The notes beneath the pieces are model-generated. The model was not told where the DNA came from. It did no database searches and saw nothing but the letters and a program-made list of their open reading frames with translations. A stretch of DNA of 64,000 nucleotides. It comes from Pseudovirgaria hyperparasitica (taxonomy: Eukaryota; Ascomycota; Dothideomycetes; Acrospermales; Acrospermaceae). The translations under genes were made by a program, and so were the position numbers. Below are positions 47,293-56,772 of this stretch, piece after piece. The DNA lies in the NCBI RefSeq assembly GCF_010093815.1, contig NW_022985557.1, forward strand, positions 1,178,001 to 1,242,000. Direction: 5' to 3'. The stretch's first letter is position 1; each line of letters starts with the position of its first letter.

Positions 47293-47378
47293 TCCTCCGT
47301 GGCGCAATTGGCTAGCGCGTCCGGCTGTTATCATGACAGCCAACCGGGAGGTTCGTGGTTCAAGCCCACGCGGGGGAG
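47293..47378 (+). tRNA. tRNA-Asn (GTT) with 12-nt intron
   Basis: A cloverleaf can be drawn by eye. The acceptor arms tcctccg and cggggga pair with one G-U and a U-A first pair. The D stem is gcgc/gcgc. The anticodon stem tccgg/ccggg encloses loop ctgtta+a with anticodon GTT at 47327-47329. The T stem cgtgg/ccacg flanks ttcaagc. A 12-base intron (47331-47342) sits one base 3' of the anticodon, the canonical place for nuclear tRNA introns. The discriminator is G. Internal promoter boxes are present (A box ggcgcaattgg, B box ggttcaagccc), and a T-rich Pol III terminator (ttcttttt) follows at once. Confidence 0.93.
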
Positions 47379-47867: not shown

Positions 47868-48533
47868 TCAGTGTTCCTTCTTGCCCCCAAGAACTCTCTT
47901 GACCATTCCCCAAGCCATGAACATGCTATCTCCCAGTGATGGCCGGTCTAACGGTTCGTCGTGGTGAGAGTTATGGTGACGTCGGTGCTCATGTGAGTGA
48001 CTATGTTGATTGTGTCCGCCCTCAGAGCCGCGACGTACGTGCCCAACACTCTGATAATAGCTGGGATCGTAGTAAGGCTGAGCGGCCTGAGATCTGGGAG
48101 GAAGGTGTCCCTCAGAGTGGCTCCGGTGATGACCTGACTGACGCTGTCCGTACCAGGCGGGATCCTCGTAGTACGGGTAGGCCGAGGGATCTTGTGATGG
48201 TCTGCGGCTCATATTGACGGGAGTTGAGTTTGCATTCGAGGACGGATAGACTGGAATGAGGTTTGGATTCTGGACTGGGAGCGGCTGTCCGGACGGGATG
48301 GTTGCGAGAGAAGGGTCGAAGTGAACGGTGTGGGTATCATATGGGTTGGGCCCGACTAGGTTGGGGTTGCTTCGAAGCTGGTCGTCTGGAAAGGGTGGTG
48401 GTGGGTGTGACACCGCTCGTTTCGAACCAGCAAGAATTGGGGAATCTTGCTGTGACTGTGGAGGTGTTGGCGAGTAGTGTTGATGACTGAGAGGAGGGTG
48501 GGCGTGGTGTTGTTGATATAAGGTCGTCATCAT
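47868..48533 (-). CDS. His/Pro/Tyr/Ser-rich disordered protein
   Basis: A single exon of 221 aa. Nearly the whole chain is low-complexity: an N-terminal His/Pro/Gln stretch (HHAHPPLSHQHYSPTPPQ), a central Asn/Pro region with SRRPSQDPS and RSHSEGH motifs (possible basophilic-kinase sites), and a His-rich part (HSHSHEHRRHHNSHH). Only the last 20 residues look ordered and conserved (DSMFMAWGMVKRVLGGKK), suggesting a short C-terminal interaction helix. There is no signal peptide or membrane helix. Function unknown. It could bind metal through the His clusters, but that is speculation. Two adjacent ATGs start the frame. Confidence 0.75.
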   Translation of the reverse strand: MMTTLYQQHHAHPPLSHQHYSPTPPQSQQDSPILAGSKRAVSHPPPPFPDDQLRSNPNLVGPNPYDTHTVHFDPSLATIPSGQPLPVQNPNLIPVYPSSNANSTPVNMSRRPSQDPSAYPYYEDPAWYGQRQSGHHRSHSEGHLPPRSQAAQPYYDPSYYQSVGHVRRGSEGGHNQHSHSHEHRRHHNSHHDEPLDRPSLGDSMFMAWGMVKRVLGGKKEH

Positions 48534-50760
48534 AGGCGATCGTGGCCTGATATATATGATCGGTACGCTAATTCGGCGATCACTATGGGACCGGTGTGAT
48601 TAGAGGGCGTGGTGGTGGGTCGTAGGGTTCGCAGATAGGACAGCCTTGTTGTCGCGACTTATTGCTAGGCTACTTTGACCTTGATGGTACAACGACAGGT
48701 GCGTCCATGCAACGATAGGATACAGATCTTTGATTGGACTATTTTGACTTCGAACGATCATATGATATGTTTGGTCCGCAGAAGTTCGTTCGACTGTCGT
48801 TGTTGGAGGAAGATTATGTTACAATGGCTGTGTACGACAGGTGAGTAGAGGTCTTATATGACGTTCGCGAGCTGAACCTTACGGCTAATCGGAGTGATGG
48901 ACATGGGTAGGAGGCGAAAGAGAACAAATGACCAGCGGTAGGGATACGCTAGAAAATAGGAAAGCTGATGAATGATACACGGCAAAGGTAAGCCGTCAGC
49001 CTTGGAGGCGTATACAAGAAAATTGGAGGGCTCGGTCAGAAAGAAGGTTCTACATCCAATGACAGGAAGGAATCAATGACTCCATTCTGACAAGAGCCAA
49101 GATCTGGGGTTGACCTTGACCGTCGCAGACATCATCCGTGTGGAAAGGTGAGATCGTCCGTATTTTCGAATCATACTGCAAGCCAGGAGTCAGAATCGGA
49201 GTCGCATCCTCGAGTCAGCCTTGTCTGGACCGTTTGGTCGTAAACATTTTGCCACTGGTGCTTCGGCCTGCGGCTCTATCTAGCGAGCGACCTATTTGTG
49301 TACGGAACGCTAAAATCGGTCTGGTCATTGGACTGTCCGCAAGGGCTAGCGGATTTCCTACCTAATTAATTAAAATTTATCTAGACTTAAGAGCTCCTAA
49401 GTCATACAATCTAGGTAATTAACAGTGATAACTGCATCTAGGTCTTAGTCCGTTCGTTTAGAGAGACCATACTTGAAGAACACGCACCTTTGTGCTCGTC
49501 TGTCTATATGCATAGTGTCATTGTTTTTATGTAATGTTAGAAGCTTTGTGGATTTCGTATTTTCTCTCTCCAAGCATGCGCTATCGACGTAGGTGCTGCC
49601 ATCTCCACAAGCATCACGGAATCATATTCGATGGTTACTCGAATACTGCCCGCTGCGAACCGTCATGTTTGTTTAGATTTCAATCCTCCATGAATACGGA
49701 GGATGAGATATCTGAAAATGGATTTGGCATGTAGGATACTGAAGGACCGAGGTGTTGGGGTGCTCGCTGGTACTTGGACATGGCGACTACTAACGGACGT
49801 GAGAATGCCATGCAGCCTTGTTTTGTTGCGAAGCGGGTGGACGATGAATTCGGATTTACAGCCGCGCTAACCGACAACAAACGATCCATGCCGAAAGCAT
49901 ATGTCAATGAGCGTACATATCCATCAATAACCATATACCAGCTTACGATATGACGCCTATGTCGACTGTACACACCTCCTTACCCCGTTCATCTGCCTGA
50001 CACGCGTCCAGTCACCCCTCGCCCACTCGTTTGAATCCTTTTTGATTCTGTCTCGATCCGTTGTTAACTTACATCATGTAAGTCAAGATTCCATCAGGTG
50101 CTATGGAGAATGGACTGCTTTCCAAATGATACTCAATGCATACAGGCGCCGGTGCGCTGCTGCCTAGCTGGTGGCAAACAATCGCATTACTGTGTTTGTG
50201 ACCGATTTCCATGGGGTACGATCAGTATCGGACCTAAGAATCTGCTCATTCTAGCCAGGTAGTAGCGATAGGAAATGAACCTGGAACCCCTCTCTCAGTG
50301 ATATAGAACGGGTCTCTCTTTATAATAGTGACCATAGATCTAATCATCGAGCGACTGGTTATGAACTAATCAGTCGCGCGAGAGGAGGCCATCCAGAACC
50401 GGCCTCCAAGACCGGCCACGACTTTCTGTATCGACTCTCGGTATAAGTTCAAGCGATGTTGAACTAGCATTCTGGTGGTTGAGGTAAATGTTTACGTTGC
50501 TCTGTCTCAGCCGGCAGCCGGTAGCAAAGACGCAACGTTATCAAAGCCAGCAAGCTCTGTGGCAGTGCGTTATACCTAGGCTTCCTCTATTCCACTTTTA
50601 CTTCCACAGCCATAGCTAAGTTTGGATTATCTCCATCGTGAAATACAAGAGGGGGCCGCAATGATTATACAGGTGTAAGACCCTCGACTGTTCCGGATAG
50701 AGGGGAAAACACCATTTCCTCCGTGATGCGGGACACGAACTACAATGATTTTCCCCAAGA
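48534..50760. other. 2.2 kb gene-poor stretch
   Basis: No supported gene. Near 49300-49460 the sequence becomes AT- and ctag/taatta-rich and contains the inverted motif tgtccgc...gcggat (49335-49353), like the patch near 28.9 kb. A frame of 97 codons at 49680-49973 (-) looks random. The part near 50700 is the 3' side of the HAD gene. Confidence 0.45.
49290..49460. mobile_element. Possible decayed transposon remnant, second copy
   Basis: A short AT-rich patch with ctaggtaattaa-type words and the GC-rich inverted motif ctgtccgcaagggctagcgg. No open frame or target duplication is visible. It is linked to the patch at 28.55-29.16 kb only through the shared TCCGC/GCGGA motif and composition. Confidence 0.25.
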
Positions 50761-51519
50761 CTAACCGTTCGTCTTACTGAGACAAGCATGGATGCCCGCA
50801 ATAGCAGCTAGCGTGCCATCTGGGTCCTTCACTTTGACCGTCTTCAGGCCCAATTGATGAGCGGGGTAGTCATTACCACCAGGGAAGATAGCATCCCCGA
50901 TAAACATCATCTCCTCGAGGGGAATACCACTCTGGTCGCGCAGCCTCTTCAGGCCGTACGCCTTGTCGACACCCTTTTGGGTGATGTCAATAGAGGTAGA
51001 CCCGCCCATGTTGATGGATACTCCCGGTAATCGTTGTATAAGGTCTCGTTGTATCAATTTGCGTTTAGCGAAGTCGGGGTCCCAGAGCTCCTTCTCATGT
51101 ATCGGCGCTTCCTGGCCCAGGGCAGAGAAGGTAATCTGACTACCGCGGTCTTCGATGCGGTTCCCCCACGTCTTCTCAGGCTTAAAGCCAGTCTTCTCGA
51201 GGGAGAGGTCCAAGGCTTCGAGGATACTCTCCTTATCGGAGCTATTAAAGAGGTCGGCACAGACGCGATTCCATTGTCCCTCATTGTATGTATAGAGTTT
51301 GGTGCCAGTTGTCGGTAGGAGCCACAGTTTAGAACGGTTCGCCCGTGCTGGTAGGCGCGACACAATCTGCTTCTCGAATTGCGGCCAATCACCGCCGGAG
51401 ATAACGGCCACATGTGCGACATGGAGTAGGTCGGCCAGCGCCTCTCCCATGGAATCGAGGAGCGGCTGCTTGCTCAAGGCAAGGGTGCCATCGAGGTCGA
51501 ACGCGACGAGAGAAATCAT
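50761..51519 (-). CDS. HAD-IIB phosphatase, bacterial type (PMM-like cap)
   Basis: A single exon of 252 aa. HAD motif I is FDLDGTLA (Asp nucleophile and acid/base Asp at about residues 8 and 10), motif II is VISGGDW, the motif III lysine lies in GVDKAYGL, and motif IV is MFIGDAIFPGGNDYP. The cap between motifs II and III carries WGNRIEDRGSQITFSALG, a block shared with phosphomannomutase-type HAD-IIB proteins. In eukaryotic PMM the chain continues differently; this compact version matches bacterial 'HAD-IIB family hydrolases' as I remember them. Likely role: sugar-phosphate phosphatase or mutase, substrate unknown. It is intronless while most neighbours of this size have introns, and it stands alone in a gene-poor stretch. 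Horizontal origin is an inference. All catalytic residues are present, so it should be active. Confidence 0.88.
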   Translation of the reverse strand: MISLVAFDLDGTLALSKQPLLDSMGEALADLLHVAHVAVISGGDWPQFEKQIVSRLPARANRSKLWLLPTTGTKLYTYNEGQWNRVCADLFNSSDKESILEALDLSLEKTGFKPEKTWGNRIEDRGSQITFSALGQEAPIHEKELWDPDFAKRKLIQRDLIQRLPGVSINMGGSTSIDITQKGVDKAYGLKRLRDQSGIPLEEMMFIGDAIFPGGNDYPAHQLGLKTVKVKDPDGTLAAIAGIHACLSKTNG

Positions 51520-54198
51520 AATGTCGTACCGACGGTACTTGGTGACGGCCGAGGACTTCAGTAGGGCAAAGCGCCAGCGAAGGAAAGTCGTCTACGTGCT
51601 AGCAAAGGATAGTAAGTAGATAGGGTGGGTGTGAAGGAAAGATGGCTGGCCATGATCGGCGTGTGTTCTATCCCTGCCGCCGCTCACCGCCCTAGAGGGG
51701 TGGTTCACTGTGGATCCGGGCACGCCTTCCTTAAATCTCGTCGGCTCCCCTGTTGCTCCTTCTCCTGCTGTTGCAATATTCTTTTAAATGGTCATCCCTA
51801 CGAAGATCTGTTCGACATGCGCGTATACGGGAAACCCCGTGAGGTGTGAGTATGTCGTAGGGCATGAACCGGGTATCGGCAAAAGACGCACTTAATGATC
51901 TCGGCCTGCCACTTCCCGCTGTACACCATGTCGAGCTCGTCTTAGGTCAAATGAAACTCCATGCGATCACGGCCGCCTTGGTGTGAAGGTCTGCTCGTTG
52001 AATTGGTATTGGCGCGTTCCCTGAGCAAATTACGGGATGAGGGAGAATGAGAAGAACAAGTCTACCGACCGCAATACATCAGGAGGCCAGGCAATAGAGG
52101 CTGTACTTGAGCCTCGAGCACTTCAGAGGTCGAGGAGGCCTTGGGTAACTTTGAAGGAGGTTGGTTTCATGATCATCGGAGCTGTTGCAATGTCAGAGAT
52201 GTAAACAAGGCGCCACAACACATTTTGTCCCTGCACAATAGCTTACCTGCCAGTCGATGCAAATGACCCTTCCGTGTACACAGTGCTGCTCGACGAGGGC
52301 AATGATCTCGGATAGGTAGTCCAGTACAACCTGGTTATGCGTATCCAGTCCTGCATCTTCAGAATGCTCGGCAGACAAATGGCAATTTGTCTGGTGTTTT
52401 ACAAACGCGAACCTTTCCGCGCCTAGACTCGCACCCGGCTTTTAGTCCCTCACATCATGGACTATCAACTCCGGGTTGCATGTGATATGCGCAATTGGTG
52501 AGCTTTGGCGTTGCTTCAGCGCCGGGCTTCAGCACGGCACCAAAAGAGCTCGTATGGCTGTTCCTCCTCAAACAACAGGTCATCGACAAGAACCTTGAGC
52601 GCAAGGTGCATCGTCTCTCTACAGCGATCCTGAGTAAGCGGAGCTGTGTTTGTCCATGCACGCTGTCTCAAACCATCAAACTTTTCGCGAGGTGGAGTAA
52701 AAAAAGAGGAAAAGCGTGAATATGGAATGTCAAGTCCACCTCCGCTCTCCGCTCTTCTATCCGCGGCAGTATCCCCCGGTGCGTGGTTGGGCGGAGTCCG
52801 CTAACAGCCTAGGCGCCAAGGATAACGTAGGCAGCCCACGACATCATCTATCTGTATAACCTACAGGAGAAAAAGCCACGGGGTAAAGTGTCTCGTGTGT
52901 TGCACGGGCAATTTCCTGAAGCACGCAGACATTACCGTGAATGGTCTGCTCTGAAATGCCCTCTATTTTGCGAAAGTAATCTTGCGGCACTACAAGTCTA
53001 CAATCACAAAAACTGTATCCTCTCTCTGTACCGCAGCTTGATATTTTGAACGACTCCATTCCTCGCCTGGGAACACCTCGATGTCGACAGCTTGATGTGC
53101 CTCCAATAAACCAGTCATCAACTTTGCTTTCACTTCCTCGTGGTGGGCAAACGGACTTCGTCCGTAGCACAGGACTTCGACAAAGCGCTTTGAGTATTTT
53201 TCTTCAGGTACGTGGGAAGATCGTTGTGAATGATGGGGCTGGGATCAATAGCTCTGTACTCATCGTCTCGGCTTATCGTCATTAACTCTTTAGCCCTGCG
53301 CTTGGATAAGTCCACTTTAGGATGGTTGACGAATTCAGTTCTCCTGTGATACGTCACGGAGGAGACGAGAACGGAGAGAGCATCCATGGTCAGCATTGCT
53401 TTCACCACTGCGGACGATTCGGCCGCCATCTGCAGGGCCACCACGACTGCCTCGAAGCCCGGGATGCTGTGCACTGGTAGATAAAATACATGAGAGACAG
53501 CGATGTTAGCCACTACACCAGTTCAGAAGATGGGGTCCTATACTAACCATTTTGGAGGTATAATGGTCTTTGAACAGGTAGGAAACGTGTCCTCTCCTTC
53601 AGTTCCAGCCGTATTCTAGTAATCATTCTTCATGCTAGACTCTTAACTTGCTCTCCTGAAGCTCACCACCAAATTTTATGAGACTAAAGACTGTAAGACT
53701 ATGTAATCTCAATACTGATCAGACCAGCGCATGTGTTGAGGACTTACGGGAGCTGTATTGTACGTAGAAGGGATTCAATCTGGGCTCGCATAAAGTACTA
53801 GGAGTCGTTCTACTTCGACCTACGTCGTATGCTGCTTTCGGACACGTATAAATGTGGATTTCCTCAAGTATATACACATCCAGGCCTCGAGAGTCAACAG
53901 CGGGTGTTCGACTTGATGCAATATCAAAAAGGGCGTCACGCATGGCGATCGTTGCGAGAAGACCAAGTTTGTCAAAAAGTCACCCTTGGCTGCCACAGCT
54001 GCGCCTTACTCTGCCCGGTTTCCTGTTACCAAAAACCGGTGAGACCAACTTACCGCCACTTAGATGGGGTGAGGTAGTCACACGTCCAAGCAAGCATTGT
54101 TCACAAGCGTTGTTTACAGCTGATTTGGAAACGCCTGCTGACTTTGTTAGTTTTGACAGTGAATCGCCCGAAGAGGCAGCAGGAGATCAGAGTAAATA
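51520..54198. other. 2.7 kb without a clear gene
   Basis: The first 300 bases are the HAD promoter. Between 52840 and 53960 the minus strand has several medium frames with protein-like stretches: DLSKRRAKELMTISRDDEYR near 53300, and in another frame LLEAHQAVDIEVFPGEEW near 53080. They do not join by good splice sites into one model. This may be a decayed gene or chance. No domain is recognised. Confidence 0.4.
52844..53513 (-). pseudogene. Possible broken minus-strand gene, unknown
   Basis: Protein-like reading appears in two successive minus frames. An upstream frame (53513 to about 53220) contains VNHPKVDLSKRRAKEL. A second frame around 53140-52990 contains EVKAKLMTGLLEAHQAVDI and ends FVIVDL before a stop. 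A third frame stays open to 52844. No intron with convincing borders connects them: the best candidate is only 37 nt, shorter than any other intron in the window. I do not recognise a family. This could be a frameshifted gene or an accidental run of open frame. Confidence 0.25.
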
Positions 54199-54531
54199 AT
54201 GCCTATTCACACTGCGGGTCGGACCGCCTCGAGACCGCTTCGACGTATGCGACACATATGGTTCTTCCTTCAAGCGGTGTTCAGGGCTCTTGAACGAGCT
54301 TATGTCACGCTTGAAGAGACTCTGATAGCTACGATACGCCTTATAACCGCTTATGTCACGCATGAAGGGACTCTGATCGTTACAATACCCTCTATGACCA
54401 TTTACGGTAACGACTCAACGACCAGTGAATCGGTCCGTGAATCAGCAATACTTGCTCGTTCCGATGTGAGACGTCTGCACAGGTTCATTCCAAGTTTTGA
54501 CCCATGCCTGCACCGTCCAAATGCACTGTGA
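54199..54531 (+). CDS. Short ORF with internal 17-residue duplication
   Basis: A frame of 110 aa that includes an imperfect 51-bp tandem duplication (54298-54399), giving AYVTLEETLIATIRLIT followed by AYVTHEGTLIVTIPSMT. The rest is basic and shows no motif. Between the copies about four in five bases match, and the frame is kept. Whether it is translated is uncertain: there is no family resemblance and no splice structure. Confidence 0.3.
   Translation: MPIHTAGRTASRPLRRMRHIWFFLQAVFRALERAYVTLEETLIATIRLITAYVTHEGTLIVTIPSMTIYGNDSTTSESVRESAILARSDVRRLHRFIPSFDPCLHRPNAL
54298..54399. repeat. Tandem duplication, 2 x 51 bp, diverged
   Basis: Both units start gcttatgtcacgc and end acc, with scattered substitutions and no indels. 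They lie inside the 110-codon frame. Confidence 0.9.
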
Positions 54532-54596
54532 AGACATATCGGCTGACATAATTACTGCTACTGGCGTTGTGCTGAGCTGGCAGAACCTTTAGTATA

Positions 54597-54608
54597 TCCA
54601 TATATGGA
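54597..54608. promoter_or_regulatory. CArG-like palindrome upstream of the 54775 gene
   Basis: The perfect palindrome tccatatatgga contains ccatatatgg, an exact CC(A/T)6GG box as bound by SRF/Mcm1-type MADS factors. It lies 167-178 bases before the ATG at 54775. Function is inferred from the match only. Confidence 0.4.
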
Positions 54609-54774
54609 CATACCTTCTGTTCCTACTCTGATTTCCTGCTCCCCACCCTTTTCCATTGCGATCCTGTTACATACCAGAGTTTCCAGGGCAAGATCTGATC
54701 AGTCCCATCATCGCCATCATACCTCCATCTCTACTCTATTCGTCTTGGACATATCAGTATTATAACCACACATC

Positions 54775-56772
54775 ATGAGTCAGGATCACTCAACTGCTAT
54801 AATGGAGAACTATGTCAGCATATCTCCCCCGTCAGCACTTCCGAAAGACCTCCAGAGACACATGCAGAAGGGAGGTACCAATAAGTTGCCGCCAATCCAA
54901 CATTCATCTCTAGCGGTCTCAGATGCCGCTCTAAAGGCATTTTCTATGAGAGGGCATCCCTTGCCATCGATAGGAGAGCAATTTCCAAAAATGGAAAAAA
55001 TTAAAGACATGGAAGACAGGATGTTGGCATCTCAGGTCTTGCTGAATATTAGTAGCAGTCACCGTCCTGTGGAACATGTGAGGCCTCACGTAGCTCCCAG
55101 ATCCCCGACTTCCACATTCACACCTATCAATCAGCCCGACAACGCTTCATCTACTGTCTCCAACTTCGGTCATGGAATGCACCTCGACCATCGGACCCTC
55201 GACTCTCAAGACATGACTCCGTCTCACGGGGATCAAGTGACAGGTACCGCTGTGGCTAGTGATGGACGCCCTTCTGCTCTCACATGCGTCAAACACAACC
55301 TTCATTCTGCTGATGAAGCACCTACACCTCCCAACCATGAAAGAAGACGTCGCCATGTCAAAACGAACGCGAAAAAGACAAAGAATGTGCTGGGGCCCAG
55401 GCCTCTGGAGAGATGGAAGGAATGGAACCCAGCGTTAGAAAAATCAGAAAATGAACTAGACAAAAAAGGTAGTGACAGTATCGAGAGGTACGAAAAGATG
55501 GGAGTGGAAGAAAAGGTCGCGTTCATGGACGGGCTCTCGACGGAAATCGTCAGGAACGCATGCATCTGCCAGTCAGCATGGAGACTGACCAAGTCCGAGT
55601 GCTACGCCCTCCCACCAGTGCCCCAGGGCGTTACTATGATTAAGAACGACGAGCAGATGTTCGGGAGCCCCGGACCGTTCCGCAGAGCTGTGTCTCATTT
55701 CTTCGGCCGAAACATGACGTCGACAAAGAAGTTGAACTTGCCAATCCTGACTCGTACATGCTATCAGAAGAGCAAGTACAGGGAGGACAAATATCCGGAC
55801 TTCATATATCGTTTGCTCCAGCTGGTTCTAGCCATCAACGACATGGACTTCCATTCTGAAGTCACATACAAAGTTGACCTGGTTAAGGAGGACCGAAACT
55901 GGTTTCAGGCCTGGTCAGAGAAGTCCGAAGGAAAGGAGGATGCCGAAGCAAAGAAGGACGGCGAACAAAAGAAGCATGACGGCCCGAGGCATGGTGGGCC
56001 AACGGCGCAGCTGTTCAAGTATATGCAGGAGACATATATCAAACCGCCAGTCCCAAGAGTCATGAACAAGCTGGAGTGCTTCAAGATGATCGAAGATATC
56101 AAGGAGAAGATCAAGGACTCTATTTATTTTGCCGACGATGAAGTGAGGAGAGAGGTTGAAAAGAAACAGGAAGCCGAGATGCAACTGAAGAAAACAGAGG
56201 GGACGGGACCAACGGACTCAGCGGAGAAACAGGTCGAGCAGGTGGATCCAACGAAGCCGGAGGGAAATCCGACCGACAAGAAGAAGACGAGCCGGATGCA
56301 CAAAGGAAAGGTAGAGCTTGCATCTTTGACTAGCAAGGAAGCGGCAAAGTACATTGAAGGATATTTCACCTTCCTACTCATCCCGGTCATCCCGGACGGC
56401 GCTACAGCTGCAGAACCACGGCCCACCAAGATCCCAGACGAGATTTACACAGCAATGTATGTAGAGCACTCCAAGAGGAATCCGAAGATCAAGTCCGAAC
56501 CAGCGTCTTCCGAACAGCCCGAAGAACAACTACCAGCCCGCAGATCCAACAAGCGCAAGCGAGCAAATGAAGCGAAACATACCGAGGCAGGCCTCGACGA
56601 TAGCAATAGCAATCCAGAAAACGAAGATGATCTCCCCGTGCTTCCAAAGAGAAGGAAGATAGCGGCGGCGCAGAAACCTCGTAGGCGTGCACCAGCATCG
56701 AAAACGCTCAGTCGGTCTCGCAGGAACCTTCCATTGAAGGTCGATATGGCAACCGACGCCATGGAGGAGTAG
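54775..56772 (+). CDS. Unrecognised, probably nuclear, lysine-rich protein
   Basis: A single exon of 665 aa. Residues 1-190 are disordered. A short basic run (about 183-205, RRRHVKTNAKKTK) precedes the best-ordered part, about residues 205-390, with helical and aromatic segments (EKVAFMDGLSTEIVRNACICQSAWRL cut short here, FRRAVSHFFGRN, FIYRLLQLVLAINDMDFHSEV). The C-terminal half is charged, with Lys/Glu-rich stretches and a second small ordered part (EAAKYIEGYFTFLLIPVIPDG). Two likely bipartite nuclear signals follow near residues 580 and 625 (SNKRKRANE, PKRRKIAAAQKPRRR). No known domain is visible. It may be lineage-specific. The ATG at 54775 is the first in frame, after a pyrimidine-rich leader. 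Confidence 0.75.
   Translation: MSQDHSTAIMENYVSISPPSALPKDLQRHMQKGGTNKLPPIQHSSLAVSDAALKAFSMRGHPLPSIGEQFPKMEKIKDMEDRMLASQVLLNISSSHRPVEHVRPHVAPRSPTSTFTPINQPDNASSTVSNFGHGMHLDHRTLDSQDMTPSHGDQVTGTAVASDGRPSALTCVKHNLHSADEAPTPPNHERRRRHVKTNAKKTKNVLGPRPLERWKEWNPALEKSENELDKKGSDSIERYEKMGVEEKVAFMDGLSTEIVRNACICQSAWRLTKSECYALPPVPQGVTMIKNDEQMFGSPGPFRRAVSHFFGRNMTSTKKLNLPILTRTCYQKSKYREDKYPDFIYRLLQLVLAINDMDFHSEVTYKVDLVKEDRNWFQAWSEKSEGKEDAEAKKDGEQKKHDGPRHGGPTAQLFKYMQETYIKPPVPRVMNKLECFKMIEDIKEKIKDSIYFADDEVRREVEKKQEAEMQLKKTEGTGPTDSAEKQVEQVDPTKPEGNPTDKKKTSRMHKGKVELASLTSKEAAKYIEGYFTFLLIPVIPDGATAAEPRPTKIPDEIYTAMYVEHSKRNPKIKSEPASSEQPEEQLPARRSNKRKRANEAKHTEAGLDDSNSNPENEDDLPVLPKRRKIAAAQKPRRRAPASKTLSRSRRNLPLKVDMATDAMEE

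Follow-up and report, generated by a model that had tools for sequence, protein, structure and literature searches.

Evidence for a retained Sphingomonas-like HAD gene in a chromosome of the fungus Pseudovirgaria hyperparasitica

Here we describe a single gene in the genome of the ascomycete Pseudovirgaria hyperparasitica that was probably acquired from a Sphingomonas-like donor and retained, and that encodes a predicted HAD enzyme of hexose phosphates; we give this reading as a whole a probability of about 0.88. The gene lies in a window of 64,000 nucleotides (bases 1178001-1242000 of contig C9, 1,577,359 bases long, from an assembly of 35 Mb and 59 contigs). A retained horizontal acquisition had been proposed for it in a sequence-only reading, and the proposal is upheld by the sphingomonad relatives of the protein, a separate phosphomannomutase (PMM) gene on contig C6, DNA similarity to bacteria within the open reading frame (ORF) only, host-like GC3, constraint on the protein and a partial duplicate on contig C19. 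The ORF, its place among sphingomonads, its residence in the host contig, the constraint and the decayed state of the duplicate were each computed here.

The same reading had described an intronless HAD frame of 252 residues without stating its strand. The frame is real and lies on the minus strand, where 252 codons run uninterrupted and without intron from an ATG to a stop; read on the plus strand, the same stretch holds five stops. All four HAD motifs quoted at that time, and the cap block, were located in the protein (Table 1), with the F of FDLDGTLA at residue 7. The description of the surroundings as a gene desert is overstated. The ORF does stand alone in an interval of 6.2 kb (48534-54774), flanked by one ORF of at least 200 aa that ends at 48533 and another that begins at 54775, and the largest other stop-to-stop frame in this interval is 130 aa. 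Because ordinary eukaryotic genes lie elsewhere in the window (an Actin family gene, EMC1, a WD40 protein with Sqt1 as its best match, a carboxylesterase and a subtilase), the surroundings are a gene-poor gap rather than a desert. The window also carries a tRNA-Asn (gtt) gene at 47293-47378 on the plus strand.

Table 1. Positions in the window of the acquired ORF, its motifs and the parts duplicated on contig C19
Feature	Window position	Strand	Basis or remark
Intronless HAD-IIB / alpha-phosphoglucomutase-like ORF, 252 aa, sphingomonad origin	50761..51519	-	Motifs, profile matches, trees
HAD motif I, residues 7-13, FDLDGTL	51481..51501	-	D8 and D10 common to 4bnd
HAD motif II, residues 39-45, VISGGDW	51385..51405	-	S41 and G42 as in 4bnd; D44 and W45 not
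Cap block, residues 118-135, WGNRIEDRGSQITFSALG	51115..51168	-	E123, R125, S132 and G135 as in 4bnd; R121, D124 and Q128 not
HAD motif III, residues 183-190, GVDKAYGL (K186)	50950..50973	-	K186 and G189 common to 4bnd
HAD motif IV, residues 208-217, GDAIFPGGND (D209, D217)	50869..50898	-	D209 and P213-D217 common to 4bnd
ORF part with decayed copy at G000:C19:291462-291593	50814..50946	-	117/133 bases identical; copy with in-frame stop and one-base gap
3' flank outside the ORF, also beside the C19 copy	50722..50760	-	BLAST block window 50722-50774, 44/53 identical

A separate observation concerns the rDNA of this assembly. Eukaryotic SSU, 5.8S and LSU models match a copy on contig C40, and the single 5.8S match in the assembly falls in this heavily RIP-like copy (G000:C40:7541-7657, L105); no intact rDNA was seen. 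Its TpA/ApT ratio is 1.81 and its (CpA+TpG)/(ApC+GpT) ratio 0.41, against 0.74 and 1.20 in the window, and by the usual thresholds we take the C40 values to be a signature of repeat-induced point mutation (RIP). With the eukaryotic rDNA models, this signature indicates that the genome is probably of filamentous-ascomycete type.

Profile searches place the protein in subclass IIB of the HAD superfamily. The NCBIfam model HAD-SF-IIB (TIGR01484) scored 65.4 bits (E 7.6e-18), above its curated cut-off of 41.8 bits, and Pfam returned PMM (PF03332; 8.1e-10, 39.3 bits over residues 116-240, with a gathering cut-off of 22.4 bits) together with Hydrolase_3 (1.1e-9, 38.9 bits). The Cof-type phosphatase model TIGR00099 gave 45 bits, below its cut-off of 137 bits; on the Cof-type HAD gene that lies upstream in the L088 operon described below, it gave 170.3 bits. 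Superfamily motifs I-IV are present in full (D8/D10, S41, K186, D209/D217) and invariant in 26 aligned rows. Going by the catalytic roles usual in the superfamily, we presume D8 to be the nucleophile and D10 the acid/base.

The closest solved structure refines this assignment. The best PDB chain is 4bnd (phmmer 8.4e-41, residues 3-243), the alpha-phosphoglucomutase of Lactococcus lactis (Nogly et al. 2013, as it appears in the reference list of PMC4263888), and a profile search returned 4bnd at 2.9e-54 against 2.8e-18 for the best PMM, PMM2. The alignment to 4bnd is full-length, with 83 identities in 241 aligned residues, and the catalytic residues are kept. These profile and structure matches, like the tblastn matches below, are far more than chance would produce. 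Since the nearest solved structure is the Lactococcus alpha-phosphoglucomutase, we predict that the protein acts on hexose phosphates as either a mutase or a phosphatase. The earlier label of HAD-IIB phosphatase needs adjusting, as the closest solved relative is a HAD-type alpha-phosphoglucomutase and not a plain HAD-IIB phosphatase. Within the reading of a retained acquired gene we lean slightly towards a mutase (on glucose-1-P/glucose-6-P or on mannose phosphates) and rank below it a plain sugar-phosphate phosphatase, which is still a real possibility; an enzyme of hexose-phosphate balance would fit. The product would be a cytosolic HAD enzyme in which D8 takes the phosphoryl group and D10 acts as acid/base, while K186 and D209 would help to hold the aspartyl-phosphate and Mg2+, and the cap residues R125, Q136 and K143 would hold the rest of the substrate.

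The Pfam PMM match would also be expected of a native gene, one for a fungal phosphomannomutase or Cof-type phosphatase that had diverged. However, the fungus has its own PMM as a separate gene on contig C6, with an upstream exon, and this matches the window protein weakly (30% identity over 102 residues, E 8.4e-4), whereas identity to a Sphingomonas protein reaches 80% and the trees nest the window protein among bacteria. We consider a native origin barely credible. That a fungal PMM might prove to be the closest relative, an outcome raised against the original proposal, was looked at and not found; the nearest relatives found are sphingomonads.

A scan of genome contigs recovered 324 relatives, the best 80 of which are 65-80% identical in amino acids over at least 242 residues. 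Titles among these best 80 of 324 name Sphingomonas, Sphingobium, Sphingopyxis or Novosphingobium in 75 cases; the other five name two uncultured bacteria, one 'Proteobacteria bacterium', one 'Bacillus sp.' and one 'Actinobacteria bacterium', the last two records being probably mislabelled bins. The best tblastn match is a Sphingomonas contig at 5e-132, an E-value relative to the candidate stretches only. The nearest bacterium is 80% identical to the window gene in amino acids and 74% in DNA. The window protein forms a clade with L001, a chromosomal Sphingomonas gene, and L003, from a metagenome-assembled genome (MAG) whose title gives a Cladonia lichen as its source, with support of 99/92 in a tree of 87 rows and 100/94 in a tree of 79 rows that left out PMM and alpha-phosphoglucomutase, the bootstraps being not settled in either. 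K182 sets these three apart from all others of 85 rows, and I2 is shared by L001 and the window protein alone. An AU test did not reject a tree in which the window protein was held with the plasmid paralogues L090 and L091 (61% identical; p 0.263). As these too are sphingomonad sequences, placement in the sphingomonad group is secure, and the branch within it is not settled, so that the exact donor there is something we can only infer. Of 289 genomes of L001's class just 2 match at 1e-20, and the genome of L001 itself is one of these.

Mobile carriers were considered and rejected: 52 plasmid records match (best 76.5%) and 14 phage records match (best 61.1%), none of them closer than the chromosomal L001. 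A scan of viral contigs for relatives of the window protein yielded none that was confirmed. Acinetobacter phage records (H23, H29-H34) do contain relatives that are 34-37% identical and mostly annotated as hypothetical or without annotation. On several sphingomonad plasmids, the paralogue of about 61% identity sits directly after a heavy-metal P-type ATPase (L090 8001-8750, L091 7992-8741).

Whether the gene truly resides in the fungal genome bears on the possibility of an assembly artefact or contamination, in which DNA of an associated Sphingomonas became part of a fungal contig. Sphingomonads occur on fungi and lichens and in association with them, and the lichen title of L003 is in keeping with such an association, but several observations argue against it. 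DNA similarity to L001 and L003 is confined to the ORF. The GC3 of the gene (0.639) falls below that of all 11 bacterial loci (0.752-0.927) and near that of the host, although at the top of the native range (0.487-0.645 in eight long native ORFs), and the window-specific changes, counted at sites where L001 and L003 agree, run 71 from GC to AT and 14 from AT to GC. A decayed copy with a matching 3' flank is present on another contig of the same genome, and even the nearest bacterium stands at just the identities given above. Contamination is accordingly very improbable. By the two marks of horizontal transfer that we used, the protein is nested in a bacterial clade and its gene is integrated in a eukaryotic chromosome, as judged from the contig, its neighbours and the C19 copy.

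The C19 match continues for 39 bases past the stop codon of the ORF. Because a deletion throws the end of the copy out of alignment, we compared the C9 and C19 copies over the 133-base BLAST-aligned block only, using the sites at which three bacteria agree. Eleven derived states are common to both copies, three changes are found in C9 only, all at position 3, and seven in C19 only, six of them at positions 1 or 2 (these being small counts), while one site differs in both. The shared derived states and the pattern of private changes indicate that the C19 copy arose after much change from the bacterial state, and that one copy then decayed while the other was held. The course of events would then be that a fungal chromosome received a single gene of a Sphingomonas-like donor, that this gene took on host-like base composition and was kept as coding sequence, and that its 3' part and flank were later copied to C19, where they decayed.

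A wider segmental duplication between C9 and C19 was sought by comparing 13 kb with 50 kb and was not found; just two unrelated 77-base matches emerged. These join the stretch at window 53452-53528 to copies of 79-85% identity at G000:C19:309317-309393 and 269021-269097, which lie about 20 kb on either side of the decayed copy. The decayed copy itself adjoins a frame that resembles an FAD-linked oxidase when translations are read by eye, and by the same means frames in G000:C19:286000-296000 (L084) resemble a UbiA-type prenyltransferase, an FAD-linked oxidase, a short-chain dehydrogenase and a methyltransferase, perhaps a secondary-metabolite cluster.

That the copy on C19 decayed raises the possibility that the ORF on C9 is itself nonfunctional, a recently dead or dying relic left open by luck. 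At low divergence this would not be rare, since in neutral simulations with 0.1 hits per site the ORF was still open in 2149 of 20,000 runs without bias and in 1125 of 20,000 with AT bias. At 0.45 hits per site, however, the divergence seen at third positions, these counts dropped to 6 of 20,000 and 0 of 20,000. The distribution of window-specific changes over codon positions (27/223 at the first, 19/229 at the second and 80/164 at the third) likewise speaks for constraint, with 46/452 at positions 1 and 2 against 80/164 at position 3 (Fisher p 2.6e-23). Across 81 bacterial rows, 95 columns reach a conservation of at least 99%, and the window protein keeps 92 of them; the three that differ (F103L, A109K, A174S) all fall outside the four HAD motifs, and the two most divergent bacterial rows also carry three changes each. 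A relic is therefore improbable, and we favor a gene retained under selection on its protein; its expression, its catalysis and its benefit to the host are what we infer beyond this constraint.

The age of the transfer is a different matter. Relative to L001 the gene has a dN of 0.151 and a dS of 2.06, the latter saturated, and the end branch of the window protein is long (0.36 in the 87-row tree, 0.45 in the 79-row tree). Both leave time for an older transfer, into an ancestor common to other fungi or by way of another fungus, in which case the gene would not be special to this species; the many fungal genes of bacterial origin reported in large surveys, to judge from the extract of PMC11708051, are in line with this. 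The position of the gene next to individual Sphingomonas genomes speaks against a very ancient transfer but is no bar to a genus- or family-wide event, and we put an older transfer at even odds. A more far-reaching version of the retained acquisition seems doubtful. In it, a Sphingomonas living on lichens or rock would have passed the gene on recently and to this lineage only, adding to the native enzymes a second route, of HAD type, for interconverting hexose-1-phosphate and hexose-6-phosphate; duplication of the gene and strong selection on it would point to a real physiological gain in a surface habitat common to both partners.

Among the 80 bacterial loci, at least 40 have the gene downstream of gnd and a Cof-type HAD gene, and at least 27 also show tal; these counts are lower bounds because the loci reach just 3 kb upstream and some are cut. 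A Sphingomonas parapaucimobilis plasmid (L088 2170-9253) is annotated with the gene order rpiA-tkt-tal-gnd-HAD-HAD-heme oxygenase, next to a histidine kinase, possibly a regulated pentose-phosphate operon. Searching the fungal genome with the 6-phosphogluconate dehydrogenase of L088 gave one weak stretch (43% over 70 residues, with one stop), and the Cof-type neighbour of L001 gave no match there, an empty answer that alone proves nothing; neither search turned up a transferred partner gene. Eight proteins of the L088 neighbourhood, compared with the window, matched just the HAD gene and a weak heme-oxygenase stretch, which we rejected as chance (49783-49893, opposite strand, 35% over 37 residues, E 0.003). 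Ten neighbour frames inspected for a functional clue (L002, L029, L055, L063, L001, L003) were mixed and had no common pathway. As to a link with the Sphingomonas general stress response, the extract of PMC6599016 contains none of the pathway words sought.

If the reading of a retained acquisition is true, the gene offers a clean case, open to dating, in which one sphingomonad gene came to work within the genome of a fungus, and the decayed sister copy supplies a neutral yardstick from the same genome. The case would also point to a bacterial branch near alpha-phosphoglucomutase that is unstudied and often stands beside pentose-phosphate genes. A literature search found no paper describing a fungus with a HAD gene from sphingomonads, although one may still exist.

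The protein can be set beside several known systems. Compared with Lactococcus 4bnd it keeps D8, D10, S41, E123, R125, Q136, K143, W146-P148, R153, K186, D209 and D217 but departs at D44, W45, R121, D124, Q128, S176 and D178. With eukaryotic PMM1/PMM2 it shares the HAD subclass, the Pfam PMM match and a SID motif in the cap, yet the match is far weaker than to 4bnd and the aligned PMM2 chain has R at Q136. Sphingomonad HAD-IIB genes of the tal-gnd-Cof HAD-gene run have the same start, the same conserved columns and, barring the C-terminal extension, the same length; unlike them, the window gene has host-like GC3, five extra C-terminal residues relative to L001 and no operon partners that we found. 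Among transfers between organisms, the extract of PMC12542154 describes single-gene transfers into lichen partners, and that of PMC11708051 counts 20,093 prokaryote-derived genes in 829 fungal genomes, with 45% of donors in the Proteobacteria and a mean identity to the donor of 46%. The present gene resembles the transfers of that survey as a single gene from a Proteobacteria donor, under purifying selection and coding for a metabolic enzyme; it differs in an identity of 80%, well above the mean, and the extract names no sphingomonad donor or HAD enzyme. We take it to be a genuine retained acquisition, more recent in identity than the survey average, and the kind of event is well known.
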